From: Sphingomonas sp. SUN039
GTDB lineage: Bacteria; Pseudomonadota; Alphaproteobacteria; Sphingomonadales; Sphingomonadaceae
Length of the DNA: 64,000 nt
Reading direction: 5' to 3'
Assembly: GCF_024758725.1 (NCBI RefSeq)
Contig: NZ_CP096972.1
Location: 292,001-356,000, forward strand
The translations under genes were made by a program, and so were the position numbers. Numbering within the stretch: the stretch's first letter is position 1; each line of letters opens with the position of its first letter. This document shows, in pieces, positions 15,052 to 63,759 of the stretch. The notes below the pieces were generated by a model. That model was given only the letters and a program-made list of their open reading frames with translations. It did no database searches and was not told the origin of the DNA.

Positions 15052-16311
15052 TTACAGACTTCGCTGTGGCAAACGCGCGAGCCGGAGGCCTGAGATGACT
15101 GCCTCGGTTGCGCTCGTGCTTCCACCACGGGTCGTAATGGTGACCGACTGGACGGGGCATGCCGCCGTGACATTGGCCGAAAAATCGGCCTTCACCCGTC
15201 CGACGGCGGTACTCGGCACGGACTGCGCTGCAATGACAGTCTGCCCGGTCTTCGCCTCGCAATTGAGATTGAAGGTAACCGAGCCACCTAGGGCCGACGT
15301 GGCGAATTCCACGACTGCGCTGACCTTGATCGGGCCGGCAGCCGCATAGAGCAGCTTTTGGCCCACGACCCCGCCGACATTGGGCTGCGCGAAAATTACG
15401 AGCCGATTTTCGCCTGCGCTGTCGGCTTCGCTTTCGATCTCCGCGCCCTTTTCGGCATCGACAAAAAACTTCCAGCTTATCGGCGCGCGATTCTTGTCCA
15501 GATTTGCCGGCGTCAGTTCAATCGTCGTCAGCGTCTGCGGGTCCGACCTTGGAATCAGGCGATAGACTGTGCGCGCCGCGTCGAAATCACGCACGACGGC
15601 GAGCCGGTCGAGCAGAAAACCCTCCCGACCGCGATACTCCGGTGCTTTGGGAAATCCGCCCGCGCGCTGGGCAAGATCGGCGAATACCGATGTTGCCTTG
15701 CTCTGGTCAATCGCAAAATCGAGAAACGTCGGCAGCCAGGGCGGCGGCTTGTGGAAATATGGCACGAACGCCTGGCGAATTTCGGCATCCTCCAACGCGG
15801 TGGTCAGGGTTGAAAAAAGCAGTGTGTGCGCTTCTTTCGTCGTCCGGATCGCAATATCGTATTGGTAGAGCGTCGCAGCCAGATTACCCGATTGCGAGGC
15901 ATCTTCGATATGCCACAGGTTGGTGGCAAGGTCCCTGCGTGTGGCTCGCTGTGCCAGCTGGAAAAAGGGTCTGGATCCGGCGGGGTTCCCCCGCAAATCG
16001 GCAACCAGCCCGAGAGCACGCAGCGCGGCGGGATTTACCGGGTCGCTGCGTAATGCCGCATGCGCCAATCGGTCGGCGGTACTGGCATCGGGCTTGCCCG
16101 TGGAAACGAGGATTTTGTTATTTGCGCTGGCGGCCAGCGCATAGCCATTCGACGGCAAAATGCCCAACCCCGCGCGTGAATTAGTGACGAGGGCGATGGT
16201 CGCAAGCGCATCACCGAACGACAGCGAGGCCATGGTCGCGGCGAGGACCGCCACGAGTCCGCGGAAGCCCAGTGTAATGTGCCGGCTGGGCCCTGCCGCA
16301 AGCGCACTCAC
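15052..16311 (-). CDS. unknown exported or membrane protein in the wza-wzc operon
   Basis: A 419-residue protein that I do not recognise. Residues 15-45 form one hydrophobic segment, so most of it is probably periplasmic. Residues about 75-190 look helical and tetratricopeptide-like (AAHAALRSDPVNPAALRALG style). The last 150 residues are beta-rich, with strands such as ISWKFFVDAEKGAEI and VSAVVEFATSALGGSVTF, resembling a carbohydrate-binding jelly roll. Its start overlaps the wzc stop in an ATGA (16308-16311), so it is co-translated with the export kinase and probably acts in polymer assembly or export. Confidence 0.72.
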   Translation of the reverse strand: MSALAAGPSRHITLGFRGLVAVLAATMASLSFGDALATIALVTNSRAGLGILPSNGYALAASANNKILVSTGKPDASTADRLAHAALRSDPVNPAALRALGLVADLRGNPAGSRPFFQLAQRATRRDLATNLWHIEDASQSGNLAATLYQYDIAIRTTKEAHTLLFSTLTTALEDAEIRQAFVPYFHKPPPWLPTFLDFAIDQSKATSVFADLAQRAGGFPKAPEYRGREGFLLDRLAVVRDFDAARTVYRLIPRSDPQTLTTIELTPANLDKNRAPISWKFFVDAEKGAEIESEADSAGENRLVIFAQPNVGGVVGQKLLYAAAGPIKVSAVVEFATSALGGSVTFNLNCEAKTGQTVIAAQSVPSTAVGRVKADFSANVTAACPVQSVTITTRGGSTSATEAVISGLRLARLPQRSL

Positions 16312-18500
16312 GCCGATTGGTCGGTGCTGCCATAGCCATAGCCGTAGCCATAGCCATAACCGTAACCGGCGTGGTTCGCCTTGAGCTTGGTCAGCACGGC
16401 ACCGGCAATCTGGGCGTGCACCGCTCTCAGTCGGTCGATCGACGTCTTGAGCCCGCGGACGGCGACCCCTTCGACCTCGATGATGAAAACACAGCCTTCG
16501 ACGGCGCGGGCGAGCAACGGCGCGTCGGCCAGGCCGAGCACGGGTGGCGAATCGATCACGACATGATCGAACTGGCCGAGGAGCTGGGTCACCAGCATCT
16601 TCATGCGATCGCTGCTGAGCAATTCGGCAGCGCTCGGCGGGGTCGGACCGGCCGGAAGCAACTGCAGACCGCGCGAGTTCGTTGGCTTCAGATACTTCGC
16701 CCAGTCATTGTCGCCCGCAAGGATGTTGCTGAGGCCCGACGCATTGCCGACTTCGACAAAGCTATGCAGCGACGGGGAGCGCATGTCGGCATCGATCAGC
16801 AGGACATTTTTCCCCGTGCGACCAAGCACCGTTGCCAACGCAAGACTGGTCGTACTCTTCCCTTCGGCAGGCCGGGTACTGGTTATCATCAGCGAGCGTG
16901 GCACGCCGTGATCGGTCGAAAACGCCAGGCTGGAACGGATTGAAATATATGCTTCGGACAGCGACGACTTCGCATCGTTCAGCATCGCTATGACGTCGGC
17001 ATCGGGCGCATCGGGCACGCTGCCCAGCAAGGGGATGTGCAACAGGCGATTGACGTCGCCCGGATCGCGCAGTCCCTCGTCGATCTGCTCGAGCGCGAAT
17101 GTCGCAGCGCCCGCAACGACGAGTCCTGCGAGCAGGGCCAACGCCATGTTGACCGGCAGTTTCGGGGATGAAGGCGAGTCCGGCACATCGGCGGCGTTGA
17201 CGATGGAAATGTTATTCGCCGCAACACCCGCGACGCCGATTTCCTTGTAGCGCTGGAGCAGACCGTCATACAGTTCGCGGTTCGTGTCGGCTTCGCGCTG
17301 ATAAATATTATACTGAATGCTGTCGCGCTGCTGGACATCCATCTGCTCGCGCAGTCCGTCGACCCGTGCTCTGAGCCCAGCTTCACGCTTTGCAGCTTCC
17401 GAATATTCGCTCGACCGCGTCGATTGAACGCGCGAAACCTCACGCGCAATACTGGTGTCTAGCGCGCGCACCTGTTCGGCTAACGCACGTGCCGCAGGAT
17501 AACCCGGCTCGAACTGAACCATCAACTTGGCATATTCCGATGCGACTTCCGCGCGCTTTTGGCGCAGCGACGAGATTGCGACGTTGCTCAACGCCTCCGC
17601 ATTCGCCCCGTTGCCGGAATTTTCGCGTGAACGGCTTTCGGCGTTGATCCGGTCTGCTGTCGCTTTGGCCAAAGCATCGTTAAGCGCCTCGAGATCGCTC
17701 GACACAAGAGTCCGTTCGACCTTCGTCTTGCCATCGGCGCTTTCGGATTTTCCCAGCGCAACGATGCCCTTTTGCGACGCATAGTTGACCAGATCGCGTT
17801 CCGAGGATTCGAGCCGGGCGCGGAGCTCGGCGAGCCTTCCTTCGAGGAACCTGCGCGCATCAGCGGTCGACTCGAACCGGCGGTCCATGCTCGACTGGAT
17901 ATATTGTTGCGACCAGACATTGGCGATCTGCGCCGAGATCTTCGGTGACGCGCTGGTATAGACGATATCGATCAGACTCGACCCGCGAATGGGCACGATC
18001 GAGATATTACCGATAAGCAGATTGACGGCGAGCTTTTCGCGGTTCGCCCGTTCGGCCGGCGAGAGCGCCCGATCGCTCTTGTTGAAGAACATGGACTCGT
18101 TCGTCGTGTCCACGCCGTGCGCTGCCATAAAATCGCGGTTCGAGGAGAGCCGCAAGGTTTTCGATACACGTTGGGCCAGCGAGCGGTCCGAAAGCAGTGA
18201 ATATTGGGTCTGGTAGAATTCGAGCTCGCGTCCGACTCCTTCGGACTCGACGCCTTCGACCTTCGTGATGTTCTTCTGTTCGCGACTTATCTCGATACGA
18301 GCCGCAGCCGAATATTTGGGCGTGGCGAGCAGTGTCGCGATCAGCCCTATGACTAGCGATGCCGCGACGATGCCAGCGATCAACCATTTCCACCGCAATG
18401 CCACCTGCCAATATTGCAGCAGAATCGGCGGGGCTATGCCGGGTCGCTGTTGCGCCATAGCCGGCGAATTCATCATCTCGATCGGTACTGAGTTTGGCAT
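16308..18500 (-). CDS. wzc: Wzc-type polysaccharide co-polymerase with tyrosine autokinase domain
   Basis: A 730-residue BY-kinase. A Wzz-like N-terminal part has transmembrane segments near residues 38-58 and 455-475, with a long coiled periplasmic region between. The cytoplasmic kinase has Walker A STRPAEGKSTT (about 545), Walker A' LLIDADMRSP (about 567) and Walker B VIDSPPVLG (about 650). The C-terminus ends in a tyrosine cluster GYGYGYGYGYGYG, the expected autophosphorylation tail. It should control chain length and export together with Wza. It lies 37 bases after wza in the same operon. Confidence 0.92.
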   Translation of the reverse strand: MPNSVPIEMMNSPAMAQQRPGIAPPILLQYWQVALRWKWLIAGIVAASLVIGLIATLLATPKYSAAARIEISREQKNITKVEGVESEGVGRELEFYQTQYSLLSDRSLAQRVSKTLRLSSNRDFMAAHGVDTTNESMFFNKSDRALSPAERANREKLAVNLLIGNISIVPIRGSSLIDIVYTSASPKISAQIANVWSQQYIQSSMDRRFESTADARRFLEGRLAELRARLESSERDLVNYASQKGIVALGKSESADGKTKVERTLVSSDLEALNDALAKATADRINAESRSRENSGNGANAEALSNVAISSLRQKRAEVASEYAKLMVQFEPGYPAARALAEQVRALDTSIAREVSRVQSTRSSEYSEAAKREAGLRARVDGLREQMDVQQRDSIQYNIYQREADTNRELYDGLLQRYKEIGVAGVAANNISIVNAADVPDSPSSPKLPVNMALALLAGLVVAGAATFALEQIDEGLRDPGDVNRLLHIPLLGSVPDAPDADVIAMLNDAKSSLSEAYISIRSSLAFSTDHGVPRSLMITSTRPAEGKSTTSLALATVLGRTGKNVLLIDADMRSPSLHSFVEVGNASGLSNILAGDNDWAKYLKPTNSRGLQLLPAGPTPPSAAELLSSDRMKMLVTQLLGQFDHVVIDSPPVLGLADAPLLARAVEGCVFIIEVEGVAVRGLKTSIDRLRAVHAQIAGAVLTKLKANHAGYGYGYGYGYGYGSTDQSA
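16331..16366 (-). repeat. six tandem hexanucleotides encoding the Wzc tyrosine tail
   Basis: Six in-frame 6-base units (CATAGC-like, with variants CGTAGC, CATAAC and CGTAAC) encode alternating Tyr-Gly at the C-terminus of Wzc. Each copy gained or lost would add or remove one phosphorylatable tyrosine without breaking the frame. Units are imperfect copies, so the tract is older than a recent slippage event. Confidence 0.85.
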
Positions 18501-18537: not shown

Positions 18538-19281
18538 TCAGTTTCTCAACAGCAGGATGAGGGGGGTCGCGACGGCCGGAATAACCTGCAGGGCGTCCTT
18601 GAACAGACGACGTGCACTTGAATCCCCGACCACGACCACATCATTGGCGAAGATCTCGGGATCTTCATAGTTGCCGCGACGGATGGCTTTCAAATTATAC
18701 AGCGCGGCCATCGGCTGGCCCTTGACAGTTCTAAACACGACAACATCATCGAGCTTAGCGAATTCGGAAACACCTTTGGCTCGCGCGACGGCGCGCATAA
18801 GCGTGAGTTTGCCGACGACGGGATAGAGCCCGGGCTCGCGCACCTCGCCATCGACAGTGACTACCTGGCTGACCGTCTCGCGCAGATTGACGGTCACTTG
18901 GGGGTCACGGACGAACCGACCGCGTAGGCGTTCTTCGAGGATATCCTCAAGCTCGCCCGGCGTCTTGCCAGCTGCCTCGACAACGCCGGCGAGCGGAAAG
19001 GAAATTCTGCCGCCCGCGTCGGTTTGCACTTGCTTGCGGCTCAGATCCTCGATTCCGAATACGTCAATCGTCAGCTGGTCGAAGGGACCGATCAGATAAG
19101 GGCGGTTCTGGCCGAACAAATCGCTCCGTTCGGGCGGCGGAAGCACATTGGTTGGCGCGACCTGCACCTGTCCAGCGGCCTGCCCACCGCCCCGCGCGCC
19201 ACCGGCCGAACCCAGTTTCGACGGGCCGACGCACGCCGATAGGCAGGCGATGCCTACAATCAAACACCAGCGGAAGGACAT
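18538..19281 (-). CDS. wza: Wza/GumB-type outer-membrane polysaccharide export lipoprotein
   Basis: A 247-residue export protein. It has a signal peptide with lipobox LSAC (Cys17), a Gly/Ala-rich linker, a Poly_export domain from about residue 60 (YLIGPFDQLTIDVFG) and a SLBB-like domain (VTVDGEVREPGLYPV). A hydrophobic C-terminus, PAVATPLILLLRN, could cross the outer membrane. The length is that of the short GumB/BexD type, not the 380-residue E. coli Wza. It forms the export channel that works with the downstream Wzc. Confidence 0.9.
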   Translation of the reverse strand: MSFRWCLIVGIACLSACVGPSKLGSAGGARGGGQAAGQVQVAPTNVLPPPERSDLFGQNRPYLIGPFDQLTIDVFGIEDLSRKQVQTDAGGRISFPLAGVVEAAGKTPGELEDILEERLRGRFVRDPQVTVNLRETVSQVVTVDGEVREPGLYPVVGKLTLMRAVARAKGVSEFAKLDDVVVFRTVKGQPMAALYNLKAIRRGNYEDPEIFANDVVVVGDSSARRLFKDALQVIPAVATPLILLLRN

Positions 19282-19335: not shown

Positions 19336-20739
19336 TTACTTTTCTGACCCTAGCGGGGATTTCGCTGGCAATCGAAACGGTACGTTCATCCAAAGTGCTG
19401 CCATCACTGCCAGCACCATGATCGATGGGGTGCGTAGCGGATAATCGCTGAAGCTGCCAATAGCGAACAGCAAAAGCACGGTCGATCCCAGCCTTGCGTA
19501 GATGTCGTCGGTTGAATTCGCGCCACGACCCAGCCACACTTTGGCGCTAACCATTGCCCAGGCCACGACGATGACCGCTAGCACCGCGCCGCCGAGCAAG
19601 CCGCCGGTCATCAGCATTTCGAGCCAATCATTGTGGGCATGGTTGATATAGCTCAAGCCGAGCATGTCGTGCGCCTCTTGAATCTGGTACACCTCGACAA
19701 AGGAACCCATTCCCGAGCCGAACGGGAAATAGCTCCGTGCTGCCTCGAGCGTCGGCATCCACAGCGAGAAGCGCAGATCGTCGAGCTGGCCGGGCGCGGC
19801 AAGGCGCTCGATCGACATAGCGCGCGAAAACATAATCGAGAGCATGACAAGGACGCACGCCGCGACTGCGGCGCCGACATAGGCTAGGTAGCTCTTCATG
19901 CCGGAGCGTTTTTTTACCGCGACACGTATTGATCGTGTGCCCAGCCGGTACGCAGCGCCTCCGGCCAAGATGCCGACCAGTGCCACTGCCAGCCCGGAGC
20001 GCGACCCCGTGATGAGGATGAACGGAATCATCGCAATGGCAACCACAAGGGCGATCCATCCGAACAGCGACTGCGCTTGCGGGGTCCGTGCGTAGACTGC
20101 AGCCAAAGTACCGATCATGACGAACAGGCCCGCGAGGAAATAGGCATGATGATTGCGGTTGACGAACAGCCCTATCGCCGAGCCATCATTCGAAAGTTCG
20201 TGAAAATACAACGGACTGCTCGATGTCCCGACCGCCTGCAGCAGCCCAATCAGCGCGCTCACGAGGCCGAGAATAAGGACAATCGGCAATATCCGCTGCT
20301 GCTCTTCACGAGGGATAGAGATGCCCAGCAGAAAAGCGGCTAGGGGTACGCTGAGCGAAAAGAGGGCATTTCTGGTCGCGGAGGGCACCATCGTGATACA
20401 TCGCCACGCGTCGATGCCTGCGGCCTTGTCGATGTCGGCGATGAGCCCGTGCCCGGGAAGCAGATGAGCCAATCCGGGCGGCAGGGGTATGAGTTGCAAC
20501 AAGGGCAAAGCGATGATCGCGCCGCCAAGCCAGGCGAGTGTCTTGTAACTGCCCAGCGCACCTTTGGGCAGCGCGATTATGGCAGCGCCGCACACCAGAA
20601 TGGCGACCGGTCGCAGGACCAACAGGTAGATGCTGTCGGCGCGCGACGCGCCGCCGATCAGGAAGACAAAAACGATAAAGGCTGCGAGGAACCAAAAGCG
20701 CAACGAAAGGTGTTTGTCGGACTTGGTTCGACCAATCAC
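19336..20739 (-). CDS. O-antigen ligase/polymerase-family membrane protein (Wzy/WaaL)
   Basis: A 467-residue polytopic membrane protein with about ten hydrophobic segments. A large periplasmic loop contains the Wzy_C signature around NHAHNDWLEMLMTGG, and an earlier NRNHHAYFLAG block is also typical. The family includes Wzy polymerases, WaaL ligases and protein O-glycan ligases, which cannot be separated by eye. First gene of the minus-strand operon with wza, wzc and the unknown gene, so a polymerase of the local polysaccharide is most likely. Confidence 0.84.
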   Translation of the reverse strand: MIGRTKSDKHLSLRFWFLAAFIVFVFLIGGASRADSIYLLVLRPVAILVCGAAIIALPKGALGSYKTLAWLGGAIIALPLLQLIPLPPGLAHLLPGHGLIADIDKAAGIDAWRCITMVPSATRNALFSLSVPLAAFLLGISIPREEQQRILPIVLILGLVSALIGLLQAVGTSSSPLYFHELSNDGSAIGLFVNRNHHAYFLAGLFVMIGTLAAVYARTPQAQSLFGWIALVVAIAMIPFILITGSRSGLAVALVGILAGGAAYRLGTRSIRVAVKKRSGMKSYLAYVGAAVAACVLVMLSIMFSRAMSIERLAAPGQLDDLRFSLWMPTLEAARSYFPFGSGMGSFVEVYQIQEAHDMLGLSYINHAHNDWLEMLMTGGLLGGAVLAVIVVAWAMVSAKVWLGRGANSTDDIYARLGSTVLLLFAIGSFSDYPLRTPSIMVLAVMAALWMNVPFRLPAKSPLGSEK

Positions 20740-20905
20740 TATGCACCACCAACCCTTGGCGCTTCCGAAGCCGCGCTTGTCGTATTACAGGGGGTGCCGG
20801 ATAAGGCCTGATGGTCTCAAGTCAATGTGCGCGACGTTTTCGGCGGGGGCGGACCAGCTCGGCAAGACGGCGGCAGGCAATTATGAAACAAAGGAATTTA
20901 CAGCA

Positions 20906-21451
20906 ATGAGTACCGAAACCACGACGCTTGCTGCAGGATGTTTCTGGTGCATCGAGGCAGTGTTCGATGGCCTTGCCGGGATCGACAGTGTCGAGAGCGG
21001 ATATATTGGCGGGCATGTGCCTGACCCGACTTACAAAGAGGTCTGCGGCGGGGCGACCGGCCATGCCGAGGCCGTGCGCATAACATTCGATTCCGACGTG
21101 GTAAGCTACGACGAAATTCTCGACATTTTCTTTGAGATTCACGACCCAACGCAGCTCAACCGGCAAGGCAATGATGTCGGCACGCAATACCGATCGGCGA
21201 TCTTTCCGCATTCGCCCGCGCAGGAAGCTGCAGCCCGCGCTGCTATCGTCCGCGCGCAAGCTGTACGAAATACCCCGGTCGTCACCACCGTCGAGCCGCT
21301 GTCCGACTGGTATGTCGCCGAAGACTATCACCAGGAATATTTCGAACGAGAAGGGGCCGCAAACCCCTATTGCCAGATCGTGGTCGCACCAAAACTCGCG
21401 AAATTTCGCCAGCGGCATGCCGCGCGGCTGAAAGACGGGGTCACGGCGTAG
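20906..21451 (+). CDS. msrA: peptide methionine (S)-S-oxide reductase
   Basis: A 181-residue MsrA. The catalytic cysteine is in AAGCFWCIEAVF, with ESGYIGGHVPDPTYKEVCGGATGH and DPTQLNRQGNDVGTQYRSAI as family blocks. It repairs oxidised methionine. The ATG at MSTETTTLAAG is chosen because the family domain begins right after; longer in-frame versions reach into the promoter region shared with the divergent polymerase gene. It lies 110 bases upstream of the ligase operon and may or may not share its transcript. Confidence 0.93.
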   Translation: MSTETTTLAAGCFWCIEAVFDGLAGIDSVESGYIGGHVPDPTYKEVCGGATGHAEAVRITFDSDVVSYDEILDIFFEIHDPTQLNRQGNDVGTQYRSAIFPHSPAQEAAARAAIVRAQAVRNTPVVTTVEPLSDWYVAEDYHQEYFEREGAANPYCQIVVAPKLAKFRQRHAARLKDGVTA

Positions 21452-21561: not shown

Positions 21562-22779
21562 ATGACCGACCGCTCCAACGTCGCGTTGCCAGCGCCCGTG
21601 CCTGGCTTTCTGCGGAGCGACGTCGCAGCAAAGCTCGCCTATCTCGATCGCCGCGATGTATCGGCGAGGCTCGCGCCCGACGGCGCTTCGGTCAGCTTTA
21701 GCGTGACCGACATTCCCGACGCCGACCGTGAGCAGATTGCCAACCGTGTCCTGAAGCTCGTTCACGACATGACGACCGATGCGTTCGAACCCGAAATCGA
21801 AGTTATGGAGGTCCGCGCCGGCGGGTCGGCCTTCCGCGACGATCCGATGCCCGCGCTCGCTGCACGGGGGGAGGTGTTTCGGGAAGGTGACGGTTATTAT
21901 TCGCTCGGGCCGCAACTTTCCGCGGTTATCGCCCATGTCGATGATCGCTTGGTGCAAGTCGCGGCGGCGATGTCCGCGCGTACCTATCGATTCCCGGCGC
22001 TGATCTCGCCCGCATATCTGGAACGCGTCCAGTATTTCAAAAACTTTCCGCACTCGCTGAGTTTCGTAACCCACCTCAACGCCGACATAGATGACATCCA
22101 GAGCTTCAGTTCCGACGCCTGTTGCATCGACGGCCGTGTCCATGCCGATCCTGCCGTGTTCGCGCGGGCCCCGGCCATGCTGTCGCCGACGGTGTGCCAT
22201 CATCTTTACGCTATGCTCGAAAATCAACGGATCGAGGCACCCGGCCTCGTTGCCACGGCGCACGGGCATTGTTTCCGCTTCGAAGCAAGCAACATGTACG
22301 CGCTCGAGCGGGCGTGGAACTTCACGATGCGCGAAATCATGTTCGTCGGCGATGAAGACTTCGTTGCCGCGCAGCTCGAGCATGTTCGTGCCGCTGTCGC
22401 ACCGATCTTGGCAGAACTCGATCTGAGCTACAGCGTGGAGACGGCGAACGACCCGTTCTTCGTCGATACGTTCCGCGATCAGGCCGCTTATCAGGCGGCG
22501 TTCGAACTCAAGCAAGAAGTGCGCGCCGACATCCCCTATCGGGGCAAGTCGCTGGCCATCGCGTCGTTCAACCGGCACGGAAATTTTTTCGGGCGAACGC
22601 TCGATATTCGCGATGCCAACGGCGAGTTCGCTTGCACCGGATGTTTTGGCGCGGGGTTCGAACGCATCGCCTTTGCGCTGGTCGCGCAACACGGACCCGA
22701 TCCACAGGGGTGGCCGTCCGCCATACGCGCCGTTGCCGATGGCGTGACCCCAGAATTATCGACAGGAGGCAGCGCGTGA
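21562..22779 (+). CDS. class II synthetase-like amino acid:[carrier protein] ligase
   Basis: A 405-residue protein resembling the catalytic core of archaeal-type seryl-tRNA synthetase without a tRNA-binding arm. Family members known from Bradyrhizobium and Agrobacterium load glycine or alanine onto a carrier protein. Motif 2 is around FRFEASNMYALERAWNFTMRE (residues 238 on) and motif 3 is GAGFERIAF (363-371). Cys212, Glu241 and Cys361 are plausible zinc ligands. About 80 N-terminal residues exceed the usual length. The stop overlaps the carrier gene's GTG start (22776-22779). It takes the DltA role in the proposed polymer aminoacylation system. Confidence 0.82.
   Translation: MTDRSNVALPAPVPGFLRSDVAAKLAYLDRRDVSARLAPDGASVSFSVTDIPDADREQIANRVLKLVHDMTTDAFEPEIEVMEVRAGGSAFRDDPMPALAARGEVFREGDGYYSLGPQLSAVIAHVDDRLVQVAAAMSARTYRFPALISPAYLERVQYFKNFPHSLSFVTHLNADIDDIQSFSSDACCIDGRVHADPAVFARAPAMLSPTVCHHLYAMLENQRIEAPGLVATAHGHCFRFEASNMYALERAWNFTMREIMFVGDEDFVAAQLEHVRAAVAPILAELDLSYSVETANDPFFVDTFRDQAAYQAAFELKQEVRADIPYRGKSLAIASFNRHGNFFGRTLDIRDANGEFACTGCFGAGFERIAFALVAQHGPDPQGWPSAIRAVADGVTPELSTGGSA
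22764..22769 (+). promoter_or_regulatory. strong ribosome-binding site for the carrier-protein gene
   Basis: A perfect AGGAGG lies six bases ahead of the GTG at 22776, inside the end of the ligase gene. It fixes the GTG as the start of the carrier protein and suggests the carrier is made in excess over the ligase. Confidence 0.75.
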
Positions 22780-23018
22780 CCGAAGACGAGATATATGCCG
22801 GCATAGCGACTGTGTTCAGGCAGCAGCTAAAAATGCCAGACCTGATGGTTTCGCCCGGCATGACGGCGGGCGATGTCAAAGGATGGGATAGTTTGACCCA
22901 TATTCGCCTAATCCTCGCAGTAGAAAAGCAGTTCGGCGTGAAATTCCGCACGAGCGAGGTTTCCAGCTTTCGCAACGTCGGCGATCTGGCGGAATTGGTG
23001 CGGGCCAAGATCGGTTGA
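22776..23018 (+). CDS. dedicated acyl carrier protein (DltC-like role)
   Basis: An 80-residue carrier protein. The phosphopantetheine serine is in GWDSLTHIRLI, about residue 38, and the four-helix pattern with the terminal DLAELVRAKIG is normal. A GTG start overlapping the ligase stop is supported by AGGAGG upstream. It should carry glycine, alanine or a related amino acid as a thioester from the upstream ligase to the membrane acyltransferase. It needs a phosphopantetheinyl transferase encoded elsewhere. Confidence 0.88.
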   Translation: MTEDEIYAGIATVFRQQLKMPDLMVSPGMTAGDVKGWDSLTHIRLILAVEKQFGVKFRTSEVSSFRNVGDLAELVRAKIG

Positions 23019-23605
23019 GCGATTTCGGTACAGCGCGCTCGACCATCGTTCAGGACTTGAGCTTCGAACAGCGGCTGGTTGCCGCGCCCCTGCTCATCGA
23101 ATCGCTTGCTGGCTATTATGCTCTGCTCGCCCTTGCCCGAGACGATTTGATCGAGGCGCTCGTCGCCGAAATGACCGAAACCACGACCGAGCTCGGCAAT
23201 GGCGTGGCCCTGATCGATGCCGATGACGTGCTCGTCGGGGTGTTCTGCGGATATCCTGCCGAAGAGCTGCCGCCCCGGCAGGTTGCCAGTCTCTACCACC
23301 TCGTGTCGAGGGTCGATGCGGATACGGGATTGCAGATACTGGAAGCTAGCGCGCGCCACGCTGCTGGCATTGAGCGCGTCCCGGATAATAGCTACTACAT
23401 GGCGCGGATGGGTATCGCGCCAGCGTACCGGGGCAGGGGAGTGTCGTCCTATTTCTATCGGGTCGCGCGGGCGGCGGCAGCGGGTCGTTTGTTGTCGCTG
23501 CATGTCGAGGCGGCGAACGGCGGGGCTGTCGGCCTCCATCATCGCGAGGGACTCTCTCTCTACGGGGCGAGCGACGGACCATTCCTGTGCATGACCGGAC
23601 CTTGA
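23015..23605 (+). CDS. GNAT-family N-acetyltransferase
   Basis: A 196-residue GNAT. The acetyl-CoA loop is APAYRGRGVSSYF and the later strand is LLSLHVEAANGGAVGLHHREGL. The TTG start is coupled to the carrier stop as TTGA (23015-23018). Its position between the carrier and the MBOAT suggests that it acetylates the amino group of the carrier-bound amino acid, or of the finished ester, giving an N-acyl-aminoacyl substituent. No dlt operon I know of has this gene. Ribosomal-protein acetylation is possible but fits the coupling poorly. Confidence 0.82.
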   Translation: MSDFGTARSTIVQDLSFEQRLVAAPLLIESLAGYYALLALARDDLIEALVAEMTETTTELGNGVALIDADDVLVGVFCGYPAEELPPRQVASLYHLVSRVDADTGLQILEASARHAAGIERVPDNSYYMARMGIAPAYRGRGVSSYFYRVARAAAAGRLLSLHVEAANGGAVGLHHREGLSLYGASDGPFLCMTGP

Positions 23606-23621
23606 GCCGGGTGGCCAGCGC

Positions 23622-24800
23622 ATGATTTTTCAACTTGAGTTCCGTTTCTGGATCTGCGCGTTCGTCATCTTCGTGCTGATCCGGTTGCGCCCGCCGATGC
23701 CGCCATCGACGTGGTTTGCCCTGCTCAACCTAATCGCGTTGTTCCTGCTTCTCGGCCTTGCAGCAACGCTGGCGATTGCGGGGTTCGCCGCGCTGTTGTG
23801 GCTCTGCCTTTTTGCCGCCCGCAGGCAAGACGGGCGCACAGCCGGTGCCGTGCTGCTTGTTGCTGGTGCGGCAGCAGTCGGTTGCGTCATCGTCTGGCAG
23901 AAGGCGATGTTCGAATTCACCGCAGCCGGTGCCACGGTTCCTTGGCCAAGATCGACGAAATTGCTGGCGTTGGTCTCGTTTTCTTATGTCGCACTTCGCG
24001 CTTGGGACGCGATCTCGGCAGTCCGTGACGGGGCTCCGTTGCTCGACCCCCTAGCGCTGAGCGGCTATCTCGCGCCGTTCTTCATGATGCCTGCCGGGCC
24101 AGTCAATGTGTATCGCGACCATCTGGGTGTCGATGCGCGAGGGGCCTTGTCGGCACCCGACTGGCGCGCCTTTCTCGGCGGTGTCCAGACCATCGTCACA
24201 GGGCTGTTCGTGAAATTCGTTCTTGCCGAGCTTCTTCGCCTGTTTGTCGTTGGCGTGAACGGCGACTGGCCGAGCGGAGGTCTGGGCGATACCTTAATAT
24301 CGTTCATTTACATCTATTTGGATTTTGCTGGATATTCGTTGATCGCGCTCGGCGTCGGGCGGCTTCTGGGCGTGCCCACCCCGGTCAATTTCGATCGTCC
24401 CTTGCTTGCGACCTCGCTGACCGACTTTTGGAGCCGCTGGCATATGTCGCTGGGCAACTGGATACGACGGCATCTGTATCTGCCAATCCAGCTCAGCTTC
24501 ATGCGCCGGTTTTCGGGCGGCAGCGAATATGTCGTCAACGGGGTCAGCCTGATGGTGGCATTCACCTTTGTCGGCCTGTGGCACCGCTTCACCTTGCCAT
24601 TCCTCGTCTGGGGTATCGTTTTCGGCTGTCTGCTGGCCCTCGAAAAATATGTGCGCGATACGGTCGGTGTGGCGTTACTCGAACGGCACCCGGGCGTCGG
24701 GATATGGCTGCGGATCATCGGACCCTTTTACGTGCTGGCGACGATTGTCGTCATGCTCCACCTCACCGCGATGCAGCAGATGGTCGGGACCGCACGATGA
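23622..24800 (+). CDS. MBOAT acyltransferase (DltB/AlgI-like)
   Basis: A 392-residue polytopic protein of the membrane-bound O-acyltransferase family. Family blocks are LDFAGYSLIALGVGRLLG, FWSRWHMSLGNWIRRHLYLP (His274) and FVGLWHRFTLPF with the probable catalytic His321. It should accept the acyl group from the carrier thioester on the cytoplasmic side and move it across the membrane, as DltB does. It lies 16 bases after the GNAT and its stop overlaps the microprotein start (24797-24800). Its C-terminus lacks a FxYxxF tail, in keeping with a separate shuttle protein. Confidence 0.9.
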   Translation: MIFQLEFRFWICAFVIFVLIRLRPPMPPSTWFALLNLIALFLLLGLAATLAIAGFAALLWLCLFAARRQDGRTAGAVLLVAGAAAVGCVIVWQKAMFEFTAAGATVPWPRSTKLLALVSFSYVALRAWDAISAVRDGAPLLDPLALSGYLAPFFMMPAGPVNVYRDHLGVDARGALSAPDWRAFLGGVQTIVTGLFVKFVLAELLRLFVVGVNGDWPSGGLGDTLISFIYIYLDFAGYSLIALGVGRLLGVPTPVNFDRPLLATSLTDFWSRWHMSLGNWIRRHLYLPIQLSFMRRFSGGSEYVVNGVSLMVAFTFVGLWHRFTLPFLVWGIVFGCLLALEKYVRDTVGVALLERHPGVGIWLRIIGPFYVLATIVVMLHLTAMQQMVGTAR

Positions 24801-24922
24801 AGCTGTTCGTGCCGACTCCCCTTCGAATCGTCGCCCGCATCGCCTGGATTTTGGCGATGCTGAGCGCGGTCGTCGTCATGACCCAAACGGCGAGCACCCC
24901 GTTTGTGTACGGCGCGTTCTGA
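24797..24922 (+). CDS. DltX-like membrane microprotein with C-terminal acyl-shuttle motif
   Basis: A 41-residue protein with a basic N-terminus, one hydrophobic segment (about residues 11-28) and the C-terminal hexapeptide FVYGAF. Charge distribution predicts the C-terminus outside the cytoplasm. In the Gram-positive Dlt pathway the microprotein DltX ends in a FxYxxF-type hexapeptide whose tyrosine carries the acyl group between DltB and DltD; Tyr38 would do so here. It overlaps the MBOAT stop (ATGA) and the SGNH start (TGATG), so the three are translationally coupled. The gene is easily missed because of its size. Confidence 0.85.
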   Translation: MKLFVPTPLRIVARIAWILAMLSAVVVMTQTASTPFVYGAF

Positions 24923-26055
24923 TGCGCTGGGCGGGTTTGAGCGAGGCAATACGCGCCGCAACGATGCTAGTTGTTGCGCTCTTAGCGATGGCGGCTTTTG
25001 CCGCAACGCTCCGCTTCGTCGCGGGGTCGCAGTTGCTTGGCACCTATGTGACGCGGTTCGAGTTCGTGCCGGGTCAGTGGTTCGCCAGAAGCGTTATCGA
25101 TCTGAAACGTGACCCCGCCAGCACCTGTGTCGTTCTGGGGGCCTCGAACGGTCGCGAGGGCTTCGACCCGGCAATCCTCGCGCGCAACGCGCCCGGCACT
25201 GCATTCGTGAACGCGGCCACGACGGGCGGCAACAACGAGGTTGTCGATATTCAATCGACGATTCTTGAGCGTTATGGCCTACATCCGCGCTGTGCGATTG
25301 CCGCGTTCAGCACCTGGACGATGTTCCGCGACGGCAGCCCGGACCTCGCCGCCGAGGAATATCTGGCATTGCTCGATTGGGAAGGGGTGCTCTCGCTGAC
25401 CTCTCGTCCGCTGCTGACGCGCAAAGGGCATCATATCGCTGCAGGTCTCATGCTCCCGCTTCGCACCAATGCCCGCCAGCTCAACCTGCTAATGCGCGTA
25501 AGCGTGTCGCATGCGCGCAAGCGCGTGCTGGGGCCCCTCCCGCTCAACCGCTACGAAAGTTACGCAGGGGAATTGCAGTCCCCCGATACCTATAATTACC
25601 AGCACACCCCGTCGCATTTGCTGGCCGACTGGGACAGGCTGGTTGCCCGGTCACGACCCTTTTACCCGGCCTCGCGCTACGGAGGCGCGATGCAGGAATC
25701 CGCGATGCGCCGGTCGCTCGATCGCCTGTTGCGGTTGACCGGCGGCCATGTCGCAATCGTCGTGACGCCGCAGACGCCTATTCTCGATCCAGCGTCGCGG
25801 GCTGCCAAACCGCATTTCGACCGCGTCGTGCAGGCGTATGCCGGCCAGGTTGCCCTGATCGATTGTACGGCGCTGCGCGATATGGCGCTTTTTGTGGATG
25901 AGGGGCATCTAACCGCCGACGGACGTGCCATCCTTTCCGCTGAAGTGGGGCAGATCGTTGCCGCCGGGGTCATGTCTGGCCGGAAGGGGTCATCAGCCCA
26001 TTGTACCGCTTCACCGTCCAGTCCGGCCGCTAAATCTGTCGCGAATAGCGACTGA
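24922..26055 (+). CDS. membrane-anchored SGNH transferase (DltD/AlgJ-like role)
   Basis: A 377-residue protein with one N-terminal membrane segment (about residues 10-36) and a periplasmic SGNH-hydrolase-like domain. The nucleophile is Ser75 in VLGASNGREGFD and the Asp-His pair is Asp326/His329 in DEGHLTADGRA. This is the arrangement of DltD and the alginate acetylation proteins, which move an acyl group onto a polymer. It completes the six-gene operon. The stop lies 26 bases inside the convergent epimerase gene, so the last eight or so codons are shared DNA. Confidence 0.82.
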   Translation: MRWAGLSEAIRAATMLVVALLAMAAFAATLRFVAGSQLLGTYVTRFEFVPGQWFARSVIDLKRDPASTCVVLGASNGREGFDPAILARNAPGTAFVNAATTGGNNEVVDIQSTILERYGLHPRCAIAAFSTWTMFRDGSPDLAAEEYLALLDWEGVLSLTSRPLLTRKGHHIAAGLMLPLRTNARQLNLLMRVSVSHARKRVLGPLPLNRYESYAGELQSPDTYNYQHTPSHLLADWDRLVARSRPFYPASRYGGAMQESAMRRSLDRLLRLTGGHVAIVVTPQTPILDPASRAAKPHFDRVVQAYAGQVALIDCTALRDMALFVDEGHLTADGRAILSAEVGQIVAAGVMSGRKGSSAHCTASPSSPAAKSVANSD

Positions 26056-27028
26056 ACCACTCGACGAACTTCGGCAGCCCCACCTCCAGCCCGGTCGTTG
26101 GCGCATAGCCCATGTCGCGGGCGATCGCGTCGATGTCGGCGTAGGTTGCGGGGACGTCGCCGGGTTGCATCGGCTGGAAGTCCTTGATCGCGGTCTTGCC
26201 GGTTGCCTGCTCGATGATCTCGATGAAGCGCAGCAGTTCCTCAGGGCTATTGTTGCCGATGTTGTAGAGCGCGTGCGGCGCGACGCTGCCGCCGGGTTTG
26301 GCCGCGCCGTCGTCGAGCGGCGGCTTGTCGACGCACGCCAGCACCCCCGCCACGATGTCGTCGATATAGGTGAAGTCGCGCTGCATCTTGCCGTGATTGA
26401 ACACCTTGATCGGCTCGCCCTTCAGCACGGCCTCGGTGAACAGCCAGGGGGCCATGTCGGGCCGCCCCCACGGACCATAGACGGTGAAGAAGCGCAGGCC
26501 CGTCAGCGGCACGCGGTAGAGGTGCGCGTAGGTTTCGCTCATCAACTCGTCGGCCTTCTTGGTCGCGGCGTAGAGCGAGACGGGGTGATCGACGCGGTCG
26601 TCGACGCTGAACGGCATCTTGGCATTGCCGCCATAAACCGACGAGGACGAGGCATAGACCATCGGCACGGCGCGGGCGCGGGCGAGTTCGAGCAGGTTGA
26701 GGTGACCGGTCAGGTTCGAGCGGACATAGGCGCGCGGGTTCTGGAGCGAGTAGCGTACCCCGGCTTGCGCGCCGAGATGGACGATGCGGTCGAATTGCGC
26801 GCCCGCAAGCGCCGTTTCGAGCGCCGTCTCGTCTGCAAAATCGACCTTGTGGAACACGAACGGCGCGTTGGTCGGCCGGTCGAGATCGGCAAGCCGCGCT
26901 TCCTTCAGCGCGACGGGGTAATAGTCGTTGAGATTGTCGATGCCGACCACGGCATCGCCCCGCGCGCGCAGGGCCTTGGTCACGGCATGGCCGATAAATC
27001 CGGCAGCCCCGGTGACGAGGATGTTCAT
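26030..27028 (-). CDS. NAD-dependent epimerase, probable UDP-glucuronate 4-epimerase
   Basis: A 332-residue extended SDR enzyme. The NAD site is GAAGFIGHAV, the active-site pair is Tyr-Lys in YAATKKADE, and blocks such as QAGVRYSLQNPRAYV and RFFTVYGPWGRPDMA are characteristic of UDP-GlcA 4-epimerases (LspL/Cap1J type), giving UDP-GalA. Its start overlaps the stop of the tsaC gene (27025-27028). With the dehydrogenase at 27945 it forms a second sugar-nucleotide operon. Confidence 0.88.
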   Translation of the reverse strand: MNILVTGAAGFIGHAVTKALRARGDAVVGIDNLNDYYPVALKEARLADLDRPTNAPFVFHKVDFADETALETALAGAQFDRIVHLGAQAGVRYSLQNPRAYVRSNLTGHLNLLELARARAVPMVYASSSSVYGGNAKMPFSVDDRVDHPVSLYAATKKADELMSETYAHLYRVPLTGLRFFTVYGPWGRPDMAPWLFTEAVLKGEPIKVFNHGKMQRDFTYIDDIVAGVLACVDKPPLDDGAAKPGGSVAPHALYNIGNNSPEELLRFIEIIEQATGKTAIKDFQPMQPGDVPATYADIDAIARDMGYAPTTGLEVGLPKFVEWFSRYSRQI

Positions 27029-63091: not shown

Positions 63092-63517
63092 TCAGACCTC
63101 GGCAACGTCCAAGCCCACTGCCAGACAGGCGCTTTTCAATCGCTCATCGAACGTCACCATTGTTGCCCCAGCTGCTTCGGCAATTGCCAGATGCAAGGCA
63201 TCGGGCGCGCGCAAGCCGAGTGTGTAGCGGTCCACAAGCGCGGCGGCGCGGATGAAATTTGCTTGATCGACCGCAAGTGTGCGGAAACTGTCGCGCGAGA
63301 GCCGGTTCCAGGTCGACAGGGCGTAATCGCGTCCCGCAGCCGTCAGCACGTCCCGTCGAATGCGGATGGCAAGTGCGCTCGACACCTCCGGGGCCGTCCA
63401 ATGGCTGATGCAGATGTCGCCGCCGTCATGCTCGGCCAGCCAGGCATTGGCGCGGTCGGAGTGATCGTCTCCGACCAGCACCGATATGATCGCCGAGGTG
63501 TCGAGATAGAAACTCAA
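63092..63517 (-). CDS. vapC: PIN-domain toxin, VapC-like
   Basis: A 141-residue PIN-domain ribonuclease. Conserved acidic residues are in YLDTSAIIS, the central WTAPEVSSAL, RAPDALHLA and VTFDERL. It should cleave a specific RNA when freed from its antitoxin. It overlaps the antitoxin gene by 4 bases. Confidence 0.9.
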   Translation of the reverse strand: MSFYLDTSAIISVLVGDDHSDRANAWLAEHDGGDICISHWTAPEVSSALAIRIRRDVLTAAGRDYALSTWNRLSRDSFRTLAVDQANFIRAAALVDRYTLGLRAPDALHLAIAEAAGATMVTFDERLKSACLAVGLDVAEV

Positions 63518-63759
63518 TACCCCTCGTCCCGCATTTCGCGGATGAGGTCGGCGGCAGTCTGCGTCTGATAGGGCAAGCTCTCGCGAAGCTTTCTGAGCGC
63601 CTCAAGGTCGATCGGCTTTCTCGGTTGGTCGGTCGTGGGCGGCACGATCCGCGCGGCGAGTTTGCCGCGACGGGTAATCTCGATGCTCTCGCCCGCTTCG
63701 GCGCGGTCGACGATCTCGCTGAAGCGGGCCTTGGCGTCGGCGAGGTTGATGCTTTCCAT
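63514..63759 (-). CDS. vapB: Phd/YefM-type antitoxin (VapB role)
   Basis: An 81-residue antitoxin. The N-terminal MESINLADAKARFSEIVDRA is the Phd/YefM DNA-binding fold, and the acidic C-terminal helix (AADLIREMRDEGY) should wrap the PIN toxin. It is first in the operon, coupled as ATGA (63514-63517), and likely represses it. Confidence 0.9.
   Translation of the reverse strand: MESINLADAKARFSEIVDRAEAGESIEITRRGKLAARIVPPTTDQPRKPIDLEALRKLRESLPYQTQTAADLIREMRDEGY

Follow-up and report, generated by a model that had tools for sequence, protein, structure and literature searches.

A candidate Dlt-like polymer acylation cassette with a tRNA-synthetase-like ligase in a polysaccharide locus of Sphingomonas sp. 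SUN039

What would six tightly coupled genes contribute to a polysaccharide locus of Sphingomonas sp. SUN039, when their products recall the Dlt system (DltABCDX, D-alanylation of teichoic acids) and the enzyme that should activate the amino acid resembles a class II tRNA synthetase? The genes lie at 21562-26055 of the window, by which is meant the whole stretch of DNA that was analysed (64,000 nucleotides; contig NZ_CP096972.1, positions 292,001 to 356,000 of the forward strand). An earlier note, made from the sequence letters, had read them as a Dlt-like relay in a Gram-negative in which a class II synthetase-type ligase replaces DltA and a GNAT is added, and that reading has support at the gene level. 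The cassette is quite likely to be a trans-membrane polymer acylation system that works in the manner of Dlt with a different activating enzyme, by the relay set out below.

The ligase and its cassette partners

All six open reading frames (ORFs) are open on the plus strand, and the run and its overlaps are as the earlier note described them: ligase and carrier overlap by GTGA, carrier and GNAT by TTGA, GNAT and MBOAT are separated by 16 bp, MBOAT and microprotein overlap by ATGA, and microprotein and SGNH-like gene meet in TGATG. The identities given there to the ligase, carrier, GNAT, MBOAT and microprotein are borne out by profile, structure or exact motif (Table 1), and that of the SGNH protein stands at the level of motifs. 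Sequence or structure prediction supports the ligase family, the carrier, the GNAT family, the MBOAT, the shuttle motif, the coupling of the genes and the nature of the locus.

Table 1. Features of the cassette and of its flanks, with coordinates in the window
Feature	Coordinates	Strand	Evidence
Class II aminoacyl-tRNA synthetase-like amino acid:[carrier protein] ligase, 405 residues	21562..22779	+	phmmer 3MEY 1.4e-32; PRK07080 5.1e-47 (below cut-off); fold Z 27.7
Phosphopantetheine carrier protein, 80 residues, GTG start	22776..23018	+	PF00550 4.1e-07, over cut-off; nearest PDB 2lml 2.7e-12
GNAT acyltransferase, 196 residues, TTG start	23015..23605	+	PF00583 1.1e-05, over cut-off
Short DltB-like MBOAT, 392 residues	23622..24800	+	PF03062 1.9e-13; TIGR04091 1.4e-41 (below cut-off); PDB DltB 5e-25
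DltX-like microprotein, 41 residues, ends TPFVYGAF	24797..24922	+	Translation, motif control; weak DUF5989 0.0017 (below cut-off)
Putative SGNH transferase, 377 residues	24922..26055	+	Motifs (Ser75, Asp326, His329) and context; no family match
MsrA, left flank of cassette	20900..21451	+	PF01625 3.7e-61
NAD-dependent sugar epimerase, right flank, convergent	26030..27028	-	PF01370 5.7e-51
Wzc-type chain-length/tyrosine kinase	16308..18500	-	TIGR01007 over cut-off
Wza-type polysaccharide export protein	18538..19281	-	PF02563 4.8e-23
Wzy/O-antigen ligase-type polymerase	19336..20739	-	PF04932 5.4e-19

The ligase is matched by phmmer to Bll0957 (3MEY), compared with which it has an extra N-terminal region of about 90 residues, and its AlphaFold model (predicted local distance difference test, pLDDT, 82; predicted template modelling score, pTM, 0.82) aligns with 3MEY over 269 residues with a root-mean-square deviation (rmsd) of 2.7 and about 29% identity. 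The six top fold matches all belong to one enzyme, the glycine:[carrier protein] ligase of Bradyrhizobium (269-271 residues aligned, rmsd 2.7-2.9, Z 27.3-27.7), and include one engineered form; the next are archaeal-type (Methanosarcina) SerRS, four alignments of which cover the N-terminal part with an rmsd near 10. Residues C212, E258 and C361 align by phmmer with C151, E196 and C299 of the solved chain, which we take to be zinc ligands of a metal site that presumably holds the amino group of the substrate, and none of the three varies among the 13 sequences of alignment A3, one of which is the window's. The score against PRK07080 (amino acid--[acyl-carrier-protein] ligase) is 160.4 bits versus a cut-off of 357, and that against Pfam tRNA-synt_2b (PF00587-like) falls just under its cut-off; judged by sequence, the ligase is a relative and not an equivalog. 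An ordinary tRNA synthetase is ruled out by the SerRS, over cut-off, that is encoded elsewhere in the genome and by best folds that are carrier-protein ligases, and a DltA equivalog is ruled out by the class II fold; none of the six proteins matches PF00501 (ANL-type, DltA) at E 1.

The translated carrier has serine 39 within GWDSL and reaches E 0.16 only, below cut-off, against the DltC model. The GNAT has no plasmid homologue at E 1e-3, no Fem or MprF family match in Pfam, and a best PDB match at E 0.29. The MBOAT, of DltB-like length, matched two PDB sequences at E up to 1, both of them DltB, and is the sole PF03062 match (E 0.001) in its genome; it has H274 in RWHMS and H321 in GLWH, the latter aligned with the GFWH histidine of DltB, and ends without an FxYxxF shuttle tail. 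Its TIGR04091 score rules it out as a DltB equivalog.

The microprotein has one hydrophobic segment, and its C-terminal FVYGAF fits exactly the acyl shuttle motif FXYXXF that is given in PMC12148441; Tyr38 is the predicted acyl carrier. Among 60 mononucleotide shuffles of the window there was no ORF of at least 30 residues ending in FxYxxF, and a six-frame scan of 93 ligase loci, the window included (1.594 Mb), found 21 such ORFs with the exact motif, of which 20 lie in MBOAT-linked ligase loci and one elsewhere (L053); the ending is therefore more than chance. The microprotein's weak resemblance to Pfam DUF5989 raises a separate point, in that this unexplained family may include further acyl-shuttle microproteins. 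In the SGNH-like protein an N-terminal hydrophobic helix is accompanied by two motif blocks, GAS with Ser75 and D326-E-G-H329; an alignment of seven SGNH-like proteins from loci of the ligase-MBOAT type shows no variation at Ser75 or His329.

Ligase loci in other genomes

Of 298 genomes in the family only the window's own has the ligase; in the class, Alphaproteobacteria, it occurs in 17 of 385, again counting the window's own. The class sample was chosen without regard to neighbourhood, and its 17 ligase-bearing genomes have 18 PF03062 matches in about 80 Mb; an MBOAT lies within 5 kb of three of the 15 non-window class ligases, two of them sharing one genome, versus 0.034 expected (P about 6e-6). 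A wide scan covered 84,980 species genomes, in a collection that may omit records close to the window's own genome, with an alignment of four MBOAT-linked ligases as the query. Among the 80 relatives kept of 125, the closest ligases (53-51% identity) belong to three metagenome-assembled genomes named Rhodospirillaceae or Magnetospira, and those that follow, mostly at 40-46%, are from Chloroflexota. The window, 15 class regions and 77 non-duplicate scan loci (duplicates L097, L106 and L112 removed) make up the 93 distinct loci; for the class matches L016 and L017 only short loci were scanned. Neighbouring genes were sought with home-made profiles partly seeded from the surveyed loci, those for SGNH from seven sequences of MBOAT-linked loci and those for GNAT from L071, L097 (the place of L019), L108 and others.

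An MBOAT lies within 6 kb of the ligase in 25 of the 93 loci, which is not a population frequency because the query itself was MBOAT-linked, and the 25 fall into about four ligase clades and represent three named phyla. A carrier-profile match lies within 4 kb in all 25; a Tyr shuttle motif, free or fused, is present in 22 (exact FxYxxF in 20, AYQQF in L034 and L036); an SGNH-profile match lies within 6 kb in 19, to which the window and L105 are added by motif; and five have a GNAT-profile match, with the GNAT beside the ligase in L019, L022, L108, L071 and L105 and Pfam confirmation in L071, L097 and L105.

On a maximum-likelihood tree of 92 ligases (L081, too short, was omitted) the MBOAT label needs nine changes, partly an artefact because some of the loci scored as lacking an MBOAT are contig ends (such as L098 and L101, where the contig gives no more than about 1 kb ahead of the ligase), and a long-branch effect possibly accounts for the grouping in which L105 joins L019 and three others. 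Group I comprises the window, L034 and L036, the latter two in the order carrier, shuttle ending AYQQF, SGNH protein (an AlgX-type match in L034), MBOAT and ligase. Group II is formed by L071-L073 of Verrucomicrobiota, with carrier, ligase and MBOAT in that order and a GNAT between in L071. Group III, from a clade that is mostly alphaproteobacterial with one Ramlibacter, has 15 MBOAT-linked loci out of 18, with an MBOAT that bears a fused F(L/I/V)YY(K/Q)F followed by ligase and carrier; of these 15 all but L096 also have a match to the SGNH profiles upstream. In group IV, L019, L022 and L108 have carrier, ligase, GNAT, MBOAT with fused FIYFRF and SGNH protein, and the contig of the Planctomycetaceae locus L105 has all six functions (SGNH by motif), with GNAT and carrier divergent from a run of ligase, SGNH protein, shuttle and MBOAT; its shuttle is separate, 57 residues long, and ends in FIYEGF.

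Some of these loci have peculiarities of their own. A KAS III-like gene is found near the ligase-MBOAT set in L034 (6026-7048; PF08545) and L036 (11225-12256), near the ligase where some other loci have the GNAT, and may encode an alternative enzyme for modifying the loaded carrier. The MBOATs of L071-L073 have WN in place of the usual WH of the first histidine motif. In L074 (2146-3545), from an AT-rich alphaproteobacterial genome, ligase and carrier are adjacent in a glycan locus, with no MBOAT in the stretch examined. In another class genome (L144:6039-9765) an AMP-binding enzyme is encoded in one run with a short MBOAT and, by reading, an SGNH-like protein; the run reads as a Dlt-like set with an ANL enzyme, in which no convincing shuttle was found by motif and no carrier by reading the called genes.

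The proposed relay and its rivals

We infer a relay in which each chemical step, the amino acid, its N-acylation, the acceptor and the activity of the SGNH protein are predictions, the MBOAT, tyrosine and SGNH transfers being modelled on Dlt and PatAB chemistry as given in PMC12148441. In the cytoplasm the ligase would use ATP to activate an amino acid and attach it as a thioester to the carrier, where the GNAT would probably N-acylate the loaded aminoacyl group as an optional step. With the MBOAT as catalyst, the acyl group would leave the carrier for the microprotein's Tyr38 and then, on the periplasmic side, be taken over by the SGNH serine. The SGNH protein would finally esterify an exported glycan with it; the exopolysaccharide made by the surrounding locus is the likeliest acceptor.

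The main ground for assigning the GNAT to the aminoacyl-carrier is the pattern in Chloroflexota, which points to a ligase-carrier-GNAT module. Of 40 Chloroflexota ligase loci, some on contigs that end early, 37 have a carrier match within 3 kb of the ligase and 37 an Antibiotic_NAT-type match within 6 kb; 34 have a GNAT match within 2.5 kb and 28 have NeuB within 8 kb, and none has an MBOAT-profile match within 8 kb. The GNAT, Antibiotic_NAT and NeuB profiles behind these counts were seeded from two or three Chloroflexota loci (GNAT also from L071), and Pfam matches support the profile calls in L044 and L075. A recurrent set of carrier, ligase, GNAT, Antibiotic_NAT and DUF4910 genes, often beside NeuB (L037-L070, L075-L079, L081), probably makes (N-acyl-)aminoacyl-substituted nonulosonic acids; a search of the open-licence literature listed no description of this set. 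The gene neighbourhoods suggest that ligase, carrier and GNAT are one module that would be able to deliver to a sugar amine instead. We tentatively entertain, without counting it likely, the wider idea of a portable N-acyl-aminoacyl-carrier module that has, in Chloroflexota, a cytosolic Antibiotic_NAT-type end serving an amino sugar of a nonulosonic acid and, in Pseudomonadota and Planctomycetota, an MBOAT-Tyr-SGNH end esterifying an exported polymer; if this is true, former tRNA synthetases would drive a new class of glycan decoration with N-acyl-aminoacyl groups, spread over several phyla.

Several results weigh against the relay as proposed for the cassette. The PRK07080 and TIGR04091 scores are under their curated cut-offs. 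The SGNH assignment is putative, a motif call plus context, because there is no family or structure match: the protein has no match in Pfam or NCBIfam, no credible match in PDB and none among plasmids at E 1e-3; in 372 class genomes it finds, besides itself, three short matches (E 3e-4 to 5e-3), all with internal stops; hhalign against three relatives of the L097 type aligns the last block only (E 0.026, probability 1.9%); and with its model (pLDDT 40) none of 298 Foldseek rows reaches E 0.001. The non-significant Foldseek rows include SGNH members (1j00, 7tjb and others), TesA and PatB, and are not counted as support because the alignment used for the model already held other SGNH-like proteins. 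The conservation of the genes together, on which the earlier note would have had the system judged, holds for the functions, which recur in several clades, and fails for the exact six-gene order, which among the surveyed loci was found nowhere but in the window. L035 and L074, among the nearest tree neighbours of the window ligase and in the same set as group I (100/89 for the grouping of L074 with the window, on a long branch), and L083 and L110, inside other MBOAT clades, have a carrier nearby and no MBOAT in the stretch examined, and no shuttle motif or SGNH protein was found near L071-L073. The home-made GNAT profiles miss the window's own GNAT, which may have another job, and they find no match within 2.5 kb in the 15 MBOAT-linked loci of group III or in L034 and L036; from such sparse matches N-acylation is hardly a general need.

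These loci, which have ligase, carrier and MBOAT without a detected GNAT, favour the same relay carrying a free aminoacyl cargo, as Dlt carries D-alanine, with the GNAT working elsewhere, for example acylating a neighbouring sugar nucleotide, and the amino-sugar genes of the surrounding locus (WbuX amidotransferase, aminotransferase, NeuD-like) would suit that role. Such an arrangement is a serious contender that we judge to fall somewhat short of probable; it is opposed by five further MBOAT-linked loci where a GNAT adjoins the ligase, by the GNAT matches close to most Chloroflexota ligases, and by the overlap of the window GNAT's start with the carrier's stop. The cargo itself might not be an amino acid. 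Glycerate is present on some sphingomonad polysaccharides, and a ligase only about 29% identical over the fold alignment to the solved enzyme could have changed its substrate to some different acid, a hydroxy acid such as glycerate or one of another kind, which the cassette would then add as the acyl group; the invariance of the three residues aligned with the metal site that presumably holds an amino group makes this decidedly unlikely.

A different division would make the cassette two modules that are neighbours by chance, in which ligase, carrier and GNAT make either a small molecule or a substituent N-linked to a sugar, as the Chloroflexota loci with Antibiotic_NAT-type and NeuB genes and no MBOAT would suggest, and MBOAT, microprotein and SGNH protein acetylate the polymer from acetyl-CoA; acyl-CoA is regarded as the donor for MBOAT/SGNH pairs outside Dlt and has been shown to be so for PatA (PMC12148441). 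This we regard as unlikely: MBOAT-linked loci occur in about four clades of the ligase, such linkage is far more frequent in the class sample than chance would give, and all cassette genes overlap or sit at most 16 bp apart. Still more remote is a ligase that charges tRNA or a free acceptor, with the GNAT as a Fem/MprF-like aminoacyl transferase and the carrier incidental. The archaeal-type SerRS among the second-best folds would agree with it, and tRNA-dependent pathways of such a kind exist according to PMC2922099; it is made very improbable by six best fold rows that are all carrier-protein ligase, by a carrier match in every one of the MBOAT-linked loci, and by a GNAT that matches PF00583 and no Fem or MprF family.

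Known systems and the surrounding locus

With Dlt the cassette shares a ligase, a carrier, a short MBOAT, a separate FxYxxF microprotein, a putative SGNH protein and the same predicted relay, and it differs in that its ligase is a class II synthetase relative, a GNAT is added and the genes lie in a Gram-negative exopolysaccharide locus. DltA is an ANL (AMP-binding) enzyme. Because this defining component is replaced by an unrelated activating enzyme, the cassette functions like Dlt and is not a member of it, and the replacement recurs. Such recurrence suggests a modular export end in the MBOAT-Tyr-SGNH relay, to which an unrelated activating enzyme has been joined several times. To our knowledge the final acceptor of amino acid:[carrier protein] ligases is unsettled, and a concrete candidate role for them is offered here; the predicted ester would alter the polymer charge of Gram-negative exopolysaccharides.

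PatA/PatB and AlgI/AlgJ/AlgX resemble the cassette in using MBOAT, Tyr hexapeptide and SGNH chemistry in Gram-negatives, and differ in having no carrier (they are evidently acyl-CoA-fed) and a hexapeptide fused to the MBOAT (PMC12148441), whereas the cassette has the motif on an ORF of its own and coupled ligase and carrier genes. The same 2025 paper describes MBOAT/SGNH pathways other than Dlt as lacking a carrier and a DltX-like microprotein; to that statement the present loci, with carrier and microprotein or carrier and fused motif, are exceptions at the gene level. Bll0957 (3MEY, 4H2S) is like the cassette ligase in fold, in conserved metal-site residues and in its neighbouring carrier, and unlike it in sequence, in lacking the N-terminal extension and in not being coupled to an MBOAT relay. 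AlmEFG of Vibrio cholerae (lipid A glycylation) is unlike the cassette in activating with a DltA-type adenylating enzyme, AlmE, and in that AlmG is not known to work as an MBOAT/SGNH relay. It is like the cassette in delivering a carrier-loaded amino acid to an envelope glycolipid in a Gram-negative (PMC12930378).

The earlier note had known of no described system with this combination. As regards the coupling of a synthetase-like ligase to an MBOAT this stands, no description having been found in the accessible parts of the open-licence literature; those of PMC6594144 and PMC2824669 (animal ATP-grasp amino acid ligases fused to esterases) contain no precedent for it. For the Gram-negative Dickeya, PMC10931765 reports a gene with the annotation DltB. 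The claim is narrowed by a publication of 2010 that foresaw sugar aminoacylation by ligase relatives, predicting a synthetase-like ligase pathway that joins an amino acid as an amide to the amino group of a surface sugar (PMC2922099); the enzyme it names for the acceptor is a different one, and no MBOAT is named (PMC2922099, Acknowledgements section).

The placing of the cassette in a polysaccharide locus proved right, with Wza-, Wzc- and Wzy-type genes alongside (Table 1). Left of the cassette are also genes for WecB, a UDP-ManNAc dehydrogenase and a WbuX amidotransferase, all over cut-off, and below cut-off an aminotransferase, a formyltransferase, a NeuD-like protein and a sugar phosphotransferase; to the right are the epimerase gene, which overlaps the end of the SGNH-like gene by 26 bp, and genes for Sua5 and a UDP-sugar dehydrogenase. 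At 62-2553 a His_biosynth-family gene, a HisH-like gene (by reading) and a WbuX N-acetyl sugar amidotransferase gene are grouped, which suggests an acetamidino sugar in the local polymer.

The cassette looks acquired, because two same-genus loci lack its genes in the stretch examined (L154 and L155) and the ligase was found in none of five same-genus genomes. Both loci retain the epimerase and Sua5 genes, and L155 also the dehydrogenase gene, of which L154 has a fragment match. The G+C content of the cassette, 0.614, is inside the range of its surroundings. At L155:4889-6138, IS3-type transposase-like genes (by reading) lie beside the epimerase gene, near the position that the cassette occupies in the window. 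Toward the end of the window, at 63092-63759 on the minus strand, two small adjacent genes resemble, by reading, a PIN-domain toxin and an antitoxin.

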